Shown in pieces: positions 1,259-16,725 of a stretch of DNA of 21,384 nucleotides. The DNA lies in the IMG/VR virus record IMGVR_UViG_3300009093_000136, positions 1-21,384 of that record; one strand, written 5' to 3'. Below the pieces are notes generated by a model. The model was not told the origin of the DNA, did no database searches, and was given only the letters and a program-made list of their open reading frames with translations. The number at the start of each line of letters is the position of its first letter. Within the stretch, counting starts at the first letter, position 1. The stretch comes from a virus. The position numbers and the translations under genes are program-made.

Positions 1259-1807
1259 TTAAATTACTTTATCTATAATGCCATATTTCTTAGCTTCTTC
1301 CGCAGTCATCCATAAATCTAATTCTGTATCTTTTGATACTTTTTCAAATTTTTGATTTGTGTCTTGACTTAATAAGGTATTTAATAATTTTTTAATTCTG
1401 GCAGTCTCTTTTGCATGAACTTCAATATCAGTTGCCTTTCCAATATATCCAGAAGAAGGTTGATGAATCATAATTCTCGCATTTTTAGAAGCCGTCCGAT
1501 GTCCCCTTTTCCCAGCACCTAATAACACTGCCCCCATACTAGCTGCCATGCCAGTACAATGAGTATAAATAGGTACTTTAGAAGTTTTTATAAAGTCGTA
1601 TAAAACTAGTCCATGGTCTACAGAACCTCCTGGAGAACATATTTGTAATGTTATAGGTGTTGTTTTCTGAGTACTTAAAAACTCTAATAATAATAAAGTG
1701 TCTACACTAGAACATTCACCTACTGCATAATGCAGTTTAACTATTCTAGTTCTCTGTGCATGATAAAGAGTAAGTTGGTTAAAATTTGCAAACTTAAAAG
1801 GTTTCAT
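1259..1807 (-). CDS. ClpP-like serine peptidase
   Basis: 182 aa, close to the usual 190-200 of bacterial ClpP without its propeptide. The fold landmarks are in order: CSPGGSV (oxyanion glycines 60-61), GMAASMG with nucleophile Ser90, RIMIHQPSSG with His115, and ELDLWMTAEEAKKYGIID with Asp164 as the third triad member. All three catalytic residues are therefore present. ClpP forms a double heptameric chamber that degrades proteins fed by an AAA+ unfoldase. Phage ClpP relatives often act as prohead proteases, but this gene lies in the replication operon beside SSB, far from the head genes, and the same operon carries a ClpX relative. A regulatory or host-directed role is therefore more likely (inference). 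A strong GGGGAGGAG precedes the start at 1807. Confidence 0.9.
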   Translation of the reverse strand: MKPFKFANFNQLTLYHAQRTRIVKLHYAVGECSSVDTLLLLEFLSTQKTTPITLQICSPGGSVDHGLVLYDFIKTSKVPIYTHCTGMAASMGAVLLGAGKRGHRTASKNARIMIHQPSSGYIGKATDIEVHAKETARIKKLLNTLLSQDTNQKFEKVSKDTELDLWMTAEEAKKYGIIDKVI

Positions 1808-3838: not shown

Positions 3839-3839
3839 A

Positions 3840-4016
3840 TCACAATACCCATTTTATATAATAAAAAAATTTTTTATATTTCAGTAATTCATTTTTAAAT
3901 TGATCCTCTAAAGTCTCTTTTTTTATTTCATTGCAACTCTGACATATACTCGAAAAATGAGCTAATGGATGATTAGAAAGTACATACTTTTTATTACATC
4001 TAACACAGAAATTCAT
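3840..4016 (-). CDS. Cys-finger mini-protein lying between polymerase halves
   Basis: A 58-aa product if translation starts at ATG 4016 (MNFCVRCNKKY), which has GGAG 7 nt upstream; an in-frame ATG at 4037 would add 7 residues. Two CxxC knuckles (CVRC and CQSC) about 20 residues apart suggest one structural zinc site, followed by a Lys/Glu-rich helix (residues 32-50) and an aromatic tail. It fills the gap between the 3'-5' exonuclease gene and the polymerase-domain gene, ending 1 nt before the polymerase start. It may be a remnant of an HNH homing endonuclease that split the polymerase gene, or a zinc-binding bridging subunit. Neither is proven. Confidence 0.65.
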   Translation of the reverse strand: MNFCVRCNKKYVLSNHPLAHFSSICQSCNEIKKETLEDQFKNELLKYKKFFYYIKWVL

Positions 4017-4063
4017 TTTACTACTCCATTTATTCATTAGTTTTCTTTATAATAAAATTATAT

Positions 4064-6591: not shown

Positions 6592-7209
6592 TTAATTATC
6601 ATAATTATCATCTACAACTGGATTTATATCTAACTCTTCTAATCTTGTTATACTTAATTTTTCTAATACTTTTCTACTTTCAATAATTAAATTTTCTATT
6701 AATTGAGCCTTTTTTAAATCTAAAATTGATTTTCTTTCTTCTTTTAAGGATTCAGTCCGGGAAAATTTATTTAAATCAATTAATTCAGCATTTTTCAGAA
6801 TTTGTTGTGTTATTAAATATTCTACTTCCTGAATTAACCCTCTAATGCCCAAATCACTTTGAATAGCCTTATCAATTAAATCTTCTTTAGGAACAAGAAA
6901 TTTTATATCTAGCCTTCTTAGTAATTCTATCCATTGATTTAATACAAAAAATTCAGAATTTAATATTTTTGTATATGTTTTTCTAGTTACTTCATCAAAT
7001 TCAATAATTTCTTGGATTCTTCCTAATAATTCTGGTAACATACCATAATTTTCTAAATCTTTTAATAAAATTTCTTCACTTTGTTTACTTTGATTAAATC
7101 CAATAGATTGATTTTTTTTGATTTTTAAATCTTGAAAAGCCCCAGCAAAAACAAACATCCATTCTTTAGTATTAACTTGTATTTTTAATTCTTTAAAATT
7201 AACATTCAT
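6592..7209 (-). CDS. ClpX-like AAA+ unfoldase, C-terminal part
   Basis: 205 aa from ATG 7209. The same frame stays open upstream to 7266 and encodes a further 19 residues homologous to ClpX (SRTLQSTILKYVEG), directly behind an in-frame TAA. Features in order: sensor 1 strand WMFVFAGAF (17-25), an IGF tripeptide (36-38) at the position of the ClpX loop that docks on ClpP, box VII GMLPELLGRI with probable arginine finger Arg64, and sensor 2 LGIRGLIQEVE with Arg123. These are the essential ClpX elements missing from the upstream fragment. The ribosome binding signal for 7209 is poor (GAGGG only 1 nt from ATG), so translation as an independent gene is doubtful. The product may depend on readthrough, or the gene may be broken. 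Confidence 0.8.
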   Translation of the reverse strand: MNVNFKELKIQVNTKEWMFVFAGAFQDLKIKKNQSIGFNQSKQSEEILLKDLENYGMLPELLGRIQEIIEFDEVTRKTYTKILNSEFFVLNQWIELLRRLDIKFLVPKEDLIDKAIQSDLGIRGLIQEVEYLITQQILKNAELIDLNKFSRTESLKEERKSILDLKKAQLIENLIIESRKVLEKLSITRLEELDINPVVDDNYDN

Positions 7210-7266
7210 ACCCTCTACATATTTTAAAATAGTAGATTGTAACGTTCTACTTATATTTTCACTACC

Positions 7267-7269
7267 TTA
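7267..7269 (-). other. In-frame TAA interrupting the ClpX-like gene
   Basis: The TAA (complement of 7267-7269) separates two parts of one continuous reading frame. Upstream codons end with the Walker B segment FIDEFDKFVTPIYS. Downstream codons continue GSENISRTLQSTILKYVEG without a frame change and with ClpX-like spacing. The only difference from an intact gene is this one codon. TAA, TAG and TGA all end other genes here, so general code reassignment is unlikely. Nonsense mutation, sequencing error or local readthrough remain possible. Confidence 0.9.
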
Positions 7270-7668
7270 TGAATAAATTGGAGTTACAAACTTATCAAAT
7301 TCATCAATAAATATTATTATTCTATTAAAATCTATTTTTTGAATAGACGAATTTAATTTAATACACTCTTCTTCTATTAAGTTTAAAAAACTTTTTCCAC
7401 TCCATCCTTCTTGACAAATAGCTTTTGAGTTAAGTTCTATTATCGGAATATTAAATATTTTAGCAGCTTCTCGTACTAAATATGTTTTTCCTACTCCTGA
7501 ATTACCTATAAATAAACAAATAGTACTTGAATTAAATTCACAAGCAAAATCTGGTGCATATTTTTTTATTAAATATTTATAATAAATCGTACAAAATTTA
7601 TCTATACTTTTGTCTTGGCCTAACACTTTTTGTTTTAAAGTTTTTCTCAGTTCTATCAAAGATTTCAT
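7267..7668 (-). CDS. ClpX-like AAA+ unfoldase, N-terminal part
   Basis: 133 aa, ending at the in-frame TAA. It lacks the zinc-binding domain of bacterial ClpX and starts directly at the AAA+ core: VLGQDKSIDKF (the conserved GQ.xAI region), Walker A GNSGVGKT at 55-62, pore loop 1 GWSG at 88-91 (GYVG in ClpX, here with Trp for Tyr), and Walker B IIIFIDEFDKF at 117-127. ClpX hexamers grip substrates with the pore loop and thread them into ClpP. Alone, this fragment lacks sensors 1 and 2, the arginine finger and the ClpP-docking loop. Those are encoded in the same frame just after the stop. The operon also contains a ClpP-like gene. AGGT lies about 8 nt before the start. Confidence 0.85.
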   Translation of the reverse strand: MKSLIELRKTLKQKVLGQDKSIDKFCTIYYKYLIKKYAPDFACEFNSSTICLFIGNSGVGKTYLVREAAKIFNIPIIELNSKAICQEGWSGKSFLNLIEEECIKLNSSIQKIDFNRIIIFIDEFDKFVTPIYS

Positions 7669-8086: not shown

Positions 8087-8761
8087 TTATTGATTTATAA
8101 AATGTAAGTATTCAACGATTTCTAAATGTCCATTTTCAGAAGCCCATCTTAAAGCATACTCATCTTCTGCATGAATATTAGCTCCTTTTTTAATTAAATA
8201 TTTAACTACTTCTAAATGTCCATATTGAGACGCCAGTCTTAAAGCATACTCACTTCCTGCATGAATATCAGCTCCTTCTTGAATTAAATATTTAACTATT
8301 TCTAAATGTCCATTTAGAGACGCCCGTCTTAAAGCATAATTATTTTCAGCATGAAGATCAGCTCCTTCTTGAATTAAATATTTAACTATTTCTAAATGTC
8401 CATTTAGAGACGCCCATTTTAAAGCAGCATTCTTTCCAGCATGAATGTTAGCCCCTTCTTTTACTAATTCCTTAATTACTGTTAATGTTATTTTTTTAAA
8501 TTTACCTAATATAATTTTATTAGCTTTATATTTAATTGGTTCTTTTGGATTTTTATATATTTTAGAATCTTTTAATAAACTTACTTCAGAAATATAACAC
8601 CCATAATCTAAAAAAGCTAAAATATCTTCTTTAGCAAAATAAATCCCTCCTGGTGTACAATCTCCTGAAGGATTAAATTCAATAGGATCTTGAATTATTC
8701 CTGGATTATAGGATAAATTATGATGTTTTTTCTCTTTATTAATTATTTTATAATATTTCAT
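8087..8761 (-). CDS. Ankyrin-repeat protein with Mimivirus-like N-terminal domain
   Basis: 224 aa. Residues about 1-85 form a distinct domain (HHNLSYNPG, FNPSGDCTPGGIYFAKED, ILAFLDYG, ANKIILGKF). Its pattern resembles the N-terminal domain that precedes ankyrin repeats in Mimiviridae proteins; this is recognised from memory and not checked. Residues about 96-221 hold four ankyrin repeats of 30 residues (YALRxASxNGHLEIVKYLIQEGADIHA), a 30-residue period like the giant-virus type. Ankyrin repeats bind proteins and are common effectors in bacteria and viruses of eukaryotic cells, but rare in phages. AGGAG precedes the start. It may act on host proteins or on the bacterium's own eukaryotic host; the latter is speculation. 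Confidence 0.85.
   Translation of the reverse strand: MKYYKIINKEKKHHNLSYNPGIIQDPIEFNPSGDCTPGGIYFAKEDILAFLDYGCYISEVSLLKDSKIYKNPKEPIKYKANKIILGKFKKITLTVIKELVKEGANIHAGKNAALKWASLNGHLEIVKYLIQEGADLHAENNYALRRASLNGHLEIVKYLIQEGADIHAGSEYALRLASQYGHLEVVKYLIKKGANIHAEDEYALRWASENGHLEIVEYLHFINQ
8267..8415 (-). repeat. Tandem 90-bp repeat inside the ankyrin gene
   Basis: The 59 nt at 8267-8325 recur identically at 8357-8415, an offset of 90 bp, which is one 30-residue ankyrin unit. Units further out are more diverged. Exact identity over 59 nt suggests recent duplication or gene conversion, so repeat number may vary between related phages. Confidence 0.85.
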
Positions 8762-14950: not shown

Positions 14951-15724
14951 ATGTCAAGTATTCCAACTCAATTAAATTTAAATGAAATGTCTCAGTCAGA
15001 TCTATTAGATCTAGCAAAAGCATTTCAAGTACTTGATGAGAAAAAGCAGTATAATAAACTAGATTTTGTATTTCCTAGATACTTAGCTAATAAAGAAGGA
15101 TACAAAAAACATTTAATATTTATGAAGGCGGGTTCTATTTACAAAGAACGGGCTTTAATTGCTGGTAACCGTACAGGAAAAACATATACTTCTATGGCTG
15201 AAGTAGCTTTTCATGTAACTGGGAAATATCCAGAAGGTTGGGAAGGAAAAAGATTTGAAGGTCCGATAGAAGCTTGGGTGGTAGGTAAAACTCATGAAAC
15301 TACTAGGGATATTCTTCAAAAGTATCTTTATGGAAATTATTTAGATCCCGGAACTGGATTTATTCCTAGAGTGGATATTATTCGTAAAACTACTAAATCT
15401 GGTATTCAAGATGCAGTACAAGATCTTTATGTTCAGCATTATGATGAAAAGGGGCACAAAGACGGAATTAGTCATTTAAGTTTTAAGTCATATGTACAGG
15501 GTATAGAAGCCTTTATGGGAGCACAAGTGCACGTAGTAGGATTAGATGAGGAGCCTCCTGAGCGTGGAATATATTCAGAATGTGTGACTCGTACAATGAC
15601 TACACAGGGAATCATTCTTTGTACATTTACTCCATTAGAAGGATTGAGTGAAGTAGTTTTGAGTTTTCTTCCAGGTGGAAGGTTCCCAATGGGGGGAATA
15701 GGTCCAGTAGAAGAGGTTTTATAA
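14951..15724 (+). CDS. terL: Terminase large subunit, ATPase part (split gene)
   Basis: 257 aa containing only the packaging motor domain. Walker A AGNRTGKT at 71-78, then GPIEAWVVGKTHETTRDI, Walker B HVVGLDEE near residue 199 with the catalytic Glu after it, and the coupling motif LCTFTPLEG near 222-230. It stops after GGIGPVEEVL. Intact relatives continue from that GIGPV region into the KFVV...W.D.PHL start of the nuclease domain, which here is a separate gene (15973-16725). 257 plus 250 aa make a normal full-length large terminase. The stop overlaps the next start (TAATG) and the last codons contain an AGAAGAGG ribosome binding site for it, so the split looks stable and not like fresh decay. 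Confidence 0.92.
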   Translation: MSSIPTQLNLNEMSQSDLLDLAKAFQVLDEKKQYNKLDFVFPRYLANKEGYKKHLIFMKAGSIYKERALIAGNRTGKTYTSMAEVAFHVTGKYPEGWEGKRFEGPIEAWVVGKTHETTRDILQKYLYGNYLDPGTGFIPRVDIIRKTTKSGIQDAVQDLYVQHYDEKGHKDGISHLSFKSYVQGIEAFMGAQVHVVGLDEEPPERGIYSECVTRTMTTQGIILCTFTPLEGLSEVVLSFLPGGRFPMGGIGPVEEVL

Positions 15725-15972
15725 TGTCTAGACCAATAACGCAGTCTGAATATTATCAAACTCACTTTTATCATGGAAAGAAAGATCGTAATAGATTTTA
15801 TCATGTTTTAGAATGTGATATTAGACTATTATCTAGTGAAATTCTAAGACTTTCCAAAATGCCTTATTCCTCTTGGAGAAATAAAGAGAAAATCATATCT
15901 TTAGATAAGCAAATTCAATATATGGAAGAATTATTAGCTGCTTATGAAAGAGATCAAAAAAGGGGATCCTAA
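15724..15972 (+). CDS. 82-aa protein inserted between the two terminase halves
   Basis: Not recognised. MSRPITQSEYYQTHFYHGKK, then a helical region rich in Leu, Ile, Lys and Glu (DIRLLSSEILRLSK and KQIQYMEELLAAYERDQKRG) likely to form a helical hairpin. It begins at the TAATG overlap with the ATPase gene and ends with TAA directly before the ATG of the nuclease gene, in the same frame as the nuclease; readthrough of that TAA would give a fusion. Its position in the linker of the terminase suggests either a helper that joins the two halves or a foreign gene that split the terminase. No intein, LAGLIDADG, GIY-YIG or HNH motif is visible. Confidence 0.75.
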   Translation: MSRPITQSEYYQTHFYHGKKDRNRFYHVLECDIRLLSSEILRLSKMPYSSWRNKEKIISLDKQIQYMEELLAAYERDQKRGS

Positions 15973-16725
15973 ATGGCTAAATTTGTTGTTAATTTAACTT
16001 GGGAAGATGCTCCACATTTATCAGAAAATGATAAAAAAGAACTATTAGCATCTTATTCACCCCATGAACGTGATGCACGTAGTAAAGGTATTCCTCAATT
16101 AGGTGCAGGAGCTATTTACCCTGTAGTAGAGGGGGATATTGTAGTAGAAGCTTTTAAAATTCCAGATCATTGGCCTAGAGCGTATGCTTTAGATGTTGGT
16201 TGGAATAAAACAGCAGCTTTATGGGGGGCTTATGATGCTAAATCAGATATTTGGTATCTTTACTCTGAATATTATAAAGGACAAGCAGAACCTTCTACTC
16301 ATGTAAATGCTATACAAGCCCGTGGAGCATGGATGTCTGGAGTAATTGATTGTCATAGTAAAGGAAGAGGCCAAGCTCATGGGGAACAATTAAGTGTTTT
16401 ATATGAAAATTTAGGTTTACGACTAGGATTAGCTTTAAATGGTCCGGGAACTTTAGAACCTAGCATTTTAGAGACATTTCAAAGATTAGTTAGTGGTAGA
16501 TTAAAAGTTTTTTCTCATTTATATAATTGGTTATCTGAATTTCGAGTATATAGACGAGATAAAAATGGAAAGATTGTAGATGAGAATGATCATTTAATGG
16601 ATTGTACTAGATTTTTAATTACTTCTGGGCATTTAGTTATGGATGTTCCTCCAGAAGAAGATGCTGATGATGCTAAAATTACTCGCCCATATTATCAAGG
16701 GCAATCACCTGTTTGTGGATACTAA
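15973..16725 (+). CDS. terL: Terminase large subunit, nuclease part (split gene)
   Basis: 250 aa. It begins AKFVVNLTWEDAPHLSEND, the usual linker into the nuclease domain, and has SPHERDARSKGIPQLGAGAIYP, then the RNase H-like catalytic Asp residues: Asp74 in YALDVGWNKTAALWGAYD, Asp126 in GVIDCHSKGRGQ and Asp206/Asp210 in ENDHLMDCTRF. Position 126 is followed by Cys where relatives usually have Pro-Ala-Ala. The domain cuts the DNA concatemer at packaging start and end. GGGGA lies 7 nt before the start, which directly follows the TAA of the 82-aa gene. It must work in trans with the separate ATPase subunit. Confidence 0.92.
   Translation: MAKFVVNLTWEDAPHLSENDKKELLASYSPHERDARSKGIPQLGAGAIYPVVEGDIVVEAFKIPDHWPRAYALDVGWNKTAALWGAYDAKSDIWYLYSEYYKGQAEPSTHVNAIQARGAWMSGVIDCHSKGRGQAHGEQLSVLYENLGLRLGLALNGPGTLEPSILETFQRLVSGRLKVFSHLYNWLSEFRVYRRDKNGKIVDENDHLMDCTRFLITSGHLVMDVPPEEDADDAKITRPYYQGQSPVCGY

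Follow-up and report, generated by a model that had tools for sequence, protein, structure and literature searches.

An uncultured AT-rich phage encodes a divergent ClpX-like ATPase whose reading frame is broken by a single TAA, and our analysis strongly favors a nonsense change private to this record, arising either as a real mutation or as a consensus error. The frame runs on past the stop as the same protein, with its conserved motifs kept on both sides.

The interrupted frame and its setting

The window, i.e. the whole stretch of DNA analyzed here, is an entire IMG/VR virus record of 21,384 bases with a GC content of 21-34%. The features needed for the argument are as follows, with positions numbered along the window.

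Leftward module: replication genes, comprising a nuclease, ClpP, an SSB-like protein, a family A DNA polymerase, a primase/helicase and ClpX
Rightward module: structural genes, comprising a holin, terminase and portal
7668-6592, minus strand: ClpX-like gene with one in-frame TAA
7267..7668, minus strand: ClpX-like N-terminal part, 133 aa plus the TAA, starting from the ATG at 7668; contains Walker A (GNSGVGKT), a pore-1-like GWSG and Walker B (IFIDEFDK)
7267..7269, minus strand: the in-frame TAA (TTA on the plus strand), in a loop matching ClpX pore loop 2
6592..7266, minus strand: ClpX-like C-terminal part, 224 codons in the same frame, with its stop at 6594-6592; contains the IGF tripeptide, the arginine finger in ELLGR and the sensor-II arginine in GIRGL
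7210..7266, minus strand: stretch from the stop to the first ATG, 19 codons, encoding the helix predicted at residues 137-151
6592..7209, minus strand: longest downstream frame with its own ATG, 205 aa, with a poorly placed Shine-Dalgarno sequence
1259..1807, minus strand: ClpP-like protease, 182 aa; Pfam profile matched at profile positions 14-179 of 182, bacterial ClpP aligned with E 6e-39

An ankyrin-repeat protein of 224 aa (8087-8761, minus strand) is encoded directly upstream of the ClpX region. A minus-strand frame at 2-205, which runs off the window end, presumably encodes an HNH/endonuclease-VII-type protein, going by its motif. An Rfam scan of the full window gave no match, and thus no evidence of an intron.

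The sequence-only reading had described a single TAA inside one ClpX-like frame, and its coordinates proved right: 133 codons precede the stop and 224 follow it in the same frame, with no sequence missing between the two halves and no second stop across the 224 downstream codons. A chance open frame downstream is ruled out by shuffled sequences (23% GC), which averaged 8.6 codons to a stop and in 0 of 20,000 cases reached 223, and by a geometric estimate of ~2e-11 for a chance opening of that length. Codon usage favors frame 0 on each side of the TAA and also across the 19-codon stretch that separates it from the first ATG. Ribosomal bypassing or frameshifting was rejected because the frame is identical across the TAA and nothing extra separates the halves. 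A long-decayed pseudogene is ruled out by the lack of a second stop and the retention of motifs. Automatic annotation would render this locus as two short proteins and could miss ClpX.

ClpX homology on both sides of the stop

Pfam assigns AAA to the first piece and AAA_2 to the second, and the NCBIfam ClpX profile NF003745 recognizes each half on its own, with 47.8 bits for the N-terminal half (profile positions 64-186) and 52.1 bits for the C-terminal half (229-406). On the joined frame the same profile scores 101.5 bits over residues 6-315. These values lie far under the curated family cut-offs (NF003745, 101.5 versus 359 bits; TIGR00382, 79.9 versus 370.75), and on these scores we class the protein as ClpX-like and not as a ClpX orthologue. 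When the PDB was searched by sequence with the read-through protein, ClpX was the top match (E 4e-18). The AlphaFold model of the read-through frame (42 sequences) has a mean pLDDT of 83.6 and a pTM of 0.76, and all 50 matches listed in a PDB fold search with this model are ClpX or ClpXP entries (best E 1.7e-17).

The residues of the AAA+ core, placed by alignment, are kept: G55-T62 (Walker A), D122-E123 (Walker B), R217 (arginine finger) and R276 (sensor II arginine). The IGF loop is present as SIGFN, with G190 and F191 in conserved columns; the role names of the Walker, arginine finger, sensor II and IGF ClpP-docking elements follow excerpts of PMC7112951. The N-terminal zinc-binding domain is absent, as the match begins at residue 6 of the protein and at position 64 of 418 in the profile. 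A ClpX unfoldase should also be an uninterrupted polypeptide, and here the chain is broken by the TAA at 7269-7267.

Columns conserved in at least 80% of 146 distinct homologous frames were retained to a similar extent in both parts of the protein, at 16/26 before the stop and 22/32 after it; at 4 further conserved columns the window protein has a gap. By this measure of sequence conservation the second half is no more decayed than the first. The conserved columns and motifs are kept past the stop as well, which suggests that selection acted on the gene as a single protein until recently, or continues to do so. The window protein is unusually divergent throughout: only 2/146 homologues retain fewer of the conserved positions in the N-terminal part, and 9/146 fewer in the C-terminal part. 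As a counterpoint to a private mutation, this marked divergence could reflect an odd function.

The stop itself, at residue 134, falls in a lower-confidence loop of the AlphaFold model, preceded by the Walker B strand (118-122) and its short helix (125-128) and followed by the helix at 137-151. Read from the alignment, this loop appears to be the counterpart of ClpX pore loop 2, in which T199 and V202 touch substrate according to excerpts of PMC7652416.

To place the codon among relatives, homologues were picked by likeness to the conserved motifs, near duplicates included, giving 160 loci, from which come the 146 distinct ORFs with a length of 240 aa or more; internal stops were counted in the best-matching stretch alone, and frames were compared in the viral set only. 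No in-frame stop was found in the best-matching stretch of the best 80 of 112 confirmed viral homologues (0/80), and among the best 80 of at least 143 confirmed genome homologues none had such a stop or a frame under 240 aa (0/80), all of these homologues being remote, with ~22-33% identity to the window protein. The sequence-only reading had listed a recent nonsense change and an error among its options, and our analysis supports these as the leading ones. One of the 80 viral loci, a ClpX-like phage gene (L090, 2452-3241), is seemingly frameshifted: its two matches lie in different frames, and its ORF has 226 aa.

Searches for closer relatives returned no match for P0001 against viral contigs, none for degenerate patterns from the ClpX-like protein (0 in genome contigs, 0 in viral contigs), and none for the full window against phage records in near mode; the profile scans yielded the best 80 of 112 viral and best 80 of at least 143 genome loci described above, all remote. 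A ClpX match was absent from 22 virus records reached via helicase or terminase relatives, none of them a known match, and the nearest relatives of the terminase C-terminal part are at most 59% identical. No close relative emerged from these searches; the remote homologues fit, and do not prove, a codon private to this record.

Two of the homologous loci are of separate interest. In Prevotella phage Lak-A2 (L026, MK250019.1, 1288-3504), ClpX carries an insert of ~300 aa just past the Walker B glutamate, which is absent from Lak-B5 (L027) and which, from its appearance, we take to resemble an intein. The ClpX of a 2-kb record labeled Listeria phage (L034, OR847666.1) looks like an ordinary bacterial chromosomal gene, and this record is probably host DNA carrying a phage label.

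Decoding of the TAA and split genes

The same intact frame and the motifs kept on both sides of the TAA would also be expected if some ribosomes decoded it, by programmed or suppressor-dependent readthrough, into a short ATP-binding form and a full ClpX. Because the stop lies in a loop, the residue inserted there would matter little. However, UAA is the least read-through stop in bacteria according to excerpts of PMC5289835, the base that follows it here is G, so that the stop is not of a leaky type, and the downstream RNA folds like its shuffles (z -0.02, -0.08 and -0.43). No tRNA gene was found in the 21.4-kb window, which belongs to a record of unstated completeness. ClpP, SSB and PolA-C end at TAA with a second in-frame stop 1-2 codons on, and the site carries a stop in no homologue's best-matching stretch among the best 80 viral and best 80 genome loci, all remote. 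Programmed readthrough with two products, which the sequence-only reading had offered as an option, is therefore not sustained: beyond the intact frame nothing supports it, and we consider readthrough of either kind very unlikely. Reassignment of TAA in the phage or its host is less probable by far, to the point of being negligible. Treating TAA as sense does lift coverage by ORFs of at least 60 aa from 0.852 to 0.952, a gain computed without a shuffled control, but this is undercut by TAA being the commonest stop in AT-rich DNA. Moreover, TAA closes 17/24 of the listed reading frames, both ClpX pieces included, and the frames that it ends include ClpP, SSB, the polymerase C-terminal part, the helicase, the terminase and the portal. 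The TAA of ClpP coincides with the end of the ClpP profile (179 of 182), the long in-frame runs beyond helicase and ORF82 correspond to the following genes, each with its own ATG, and only ClpX carries on as the same protein past its TAA. The earlier judgment that reassignment is unlikely since other genes stop at TAA thus stands, and the gene ends largely refute this explanation already. In phages, TAG is a stop codon for which reassignment has been demonstrated (PMC9523058, in excerpt); a limited literature search found no comparable phage reassignment of TAA.

A further explanation is that the ribosome halts at the TAA and restarts, either at the ATG at 7209 or at an unusual start nearer the stop, and that the two polypeptides, an ATP-binding N-terminal piece and a C-terminal piece, assemble into a split unfoldase. 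The polymerase and terminase are genuinely split in the same phage, where another split gene would not be surprising, and the break in ClpX falls in a loop. Translational coupling is plausible as well, given that helicase and polymerase, and likewise ORF82 and terminase, abut in frame with a stop beside an ATG. The signals at the ClpX break serve such a restart poorly. The first in-frame ATG is residue 152, 60 nt past the stop and directly after the predicted helix 137-151, and no in-frame ATG, GTG or TTG occurs in the 19 codons before it, so that initiation at the only standard nearby start would leave 19 conserved codons untranslated and remove a conserved helix. That this start deletes the helix, and that the downstream piece lacks a good start, with GAGGG just 1 nt from the ATG, had both been noticed from the letters and hold up here. 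At usable spacing, the Shine-Dalgarno pairing of this ATG is weak, at -1.7 kcal/mol versus a median of -5.75 kcal/mol for 22 other starts chosen from the ORF list with both ClpX pieces set aside, although 3 of these are weaker still. In all 160 homologues examined, the best-matching stretch is free of a stop at this site. A two-polypeptide ClpX is possible and, on this balance, distinctly unlikely. Taken more broadly, the idea that the unfoldase is deliberately made in two pieces, or supplied at a low full-length dose via UAA readthrough, with its break in the substrate-gripping pore-2 loop, is somewhat easier to entertain and still unlikely. We thus retain the private nonsense change as the preferred reading.

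The two splits that serve as precedent differ in layout from the ClpX break. The exonuclease and polymerase parts are separated by ~225 nt (3839-4063, minus strand), which encode a 65-aa protein that carries two CxxC pairs and matches HNH_5 weakly; the polymerase pieces on either side share a frame, with many stops between them. The terminase (14951-16725, plus strand) has an 82-aa frame between its ATPase and nuclease parts. In both cases the downstream piece has its own ATG near a stop, with Shine-Dalgarno pairing that is strong for the terminase (-7.8 kcal/mol) and modest for the polymerase (-3.7 kcal/mol). Several relatives also have a large terminase divided between ATPase and nuclease, at roughly the same point, the intervening sequence being an unrelated-looking 63-aa frame in L006 (2127-3759), only ~20 nt in L015 (9213-10429) and ~130 nt in L195 (MW202785.1, 24453-26085). 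Among 18 terminase loci, a single frame occurs in 13, a split in 2 and no N-terminal match in 3.

A probable phage ClpX/ClpP pair and the predicted effect of the stop

The ClpP-like protease is a probable partner of the ClpX-like protein, which in turn is likely the unfoldase that feeds it. Bacterial ClpX from E. coli and relatives, the best fold match in the PDB, shares the AAA+ core with Walker A and B, arginine finger, sensor II and IGF. In contrast to it, the window protein lacks the N-terminal zinc domain, has a shortened RKH-loop region, shows ~23% identity in the fold search and is encoded by a gene interrupted by a stop. Bacillus phage G likewise carries a ClpX-like ATPase (gp258) and a ClpP-like protease (gp257) in one phage genome, but its ClpX is one intact frame of the full type with a zinc domain and adjoins ClpP, whereas in the window ~5 kb separate clpP from the interrupted clpX. 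Salmonella phage TR2 (Schitoviridae) and Acinetobacter phage HD01 encode small ClpX-like proteins that share with the window protein the DEFDK Walker B, the FAGAF strand and the lack of an N domain, at ~30% identity; unlike it, they are single frames of ~270-280 aa in which the IGF segment is absent. In excerpts of PMC7824862 and PMC6102473, phage ClpX is also known from jumbo phages and Atu_ph07, and possible roles of phage Clp proteins in virion assembly or replication control are considered.

Our analysis suggests a phage-encoded ClpX homologue without a zinc domain, built to act as a hexameric, ATP-driven unfoldase that would supply the phage ClpP. In this one record, a single TAA within the pore-2 loop appears to have broken its frame through a recent private nonsense change, be it a population mutation or a metagenomic consensus error; the sequence record alone fits both. 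If the stop is real, translation would yield a stub of 133 residues that keeps Walker A and B but not the arginine finger, sensor II or the ClpP-docking loop. Lacking those elements, the stub would presumably be no working unfoldase, and the phage ClpP would therefore rely on host ClpX or another unfoldase. As it stands, the finding contributes a divergent ClpX/ClpP pair from a phage, together with one interrupted gene. Were the stop conserved and the protein functional, it would represent a split or recoded phage AAA+ unfoldase and would show that a hexameric motor can withstand a break of its chain at a pore loop.
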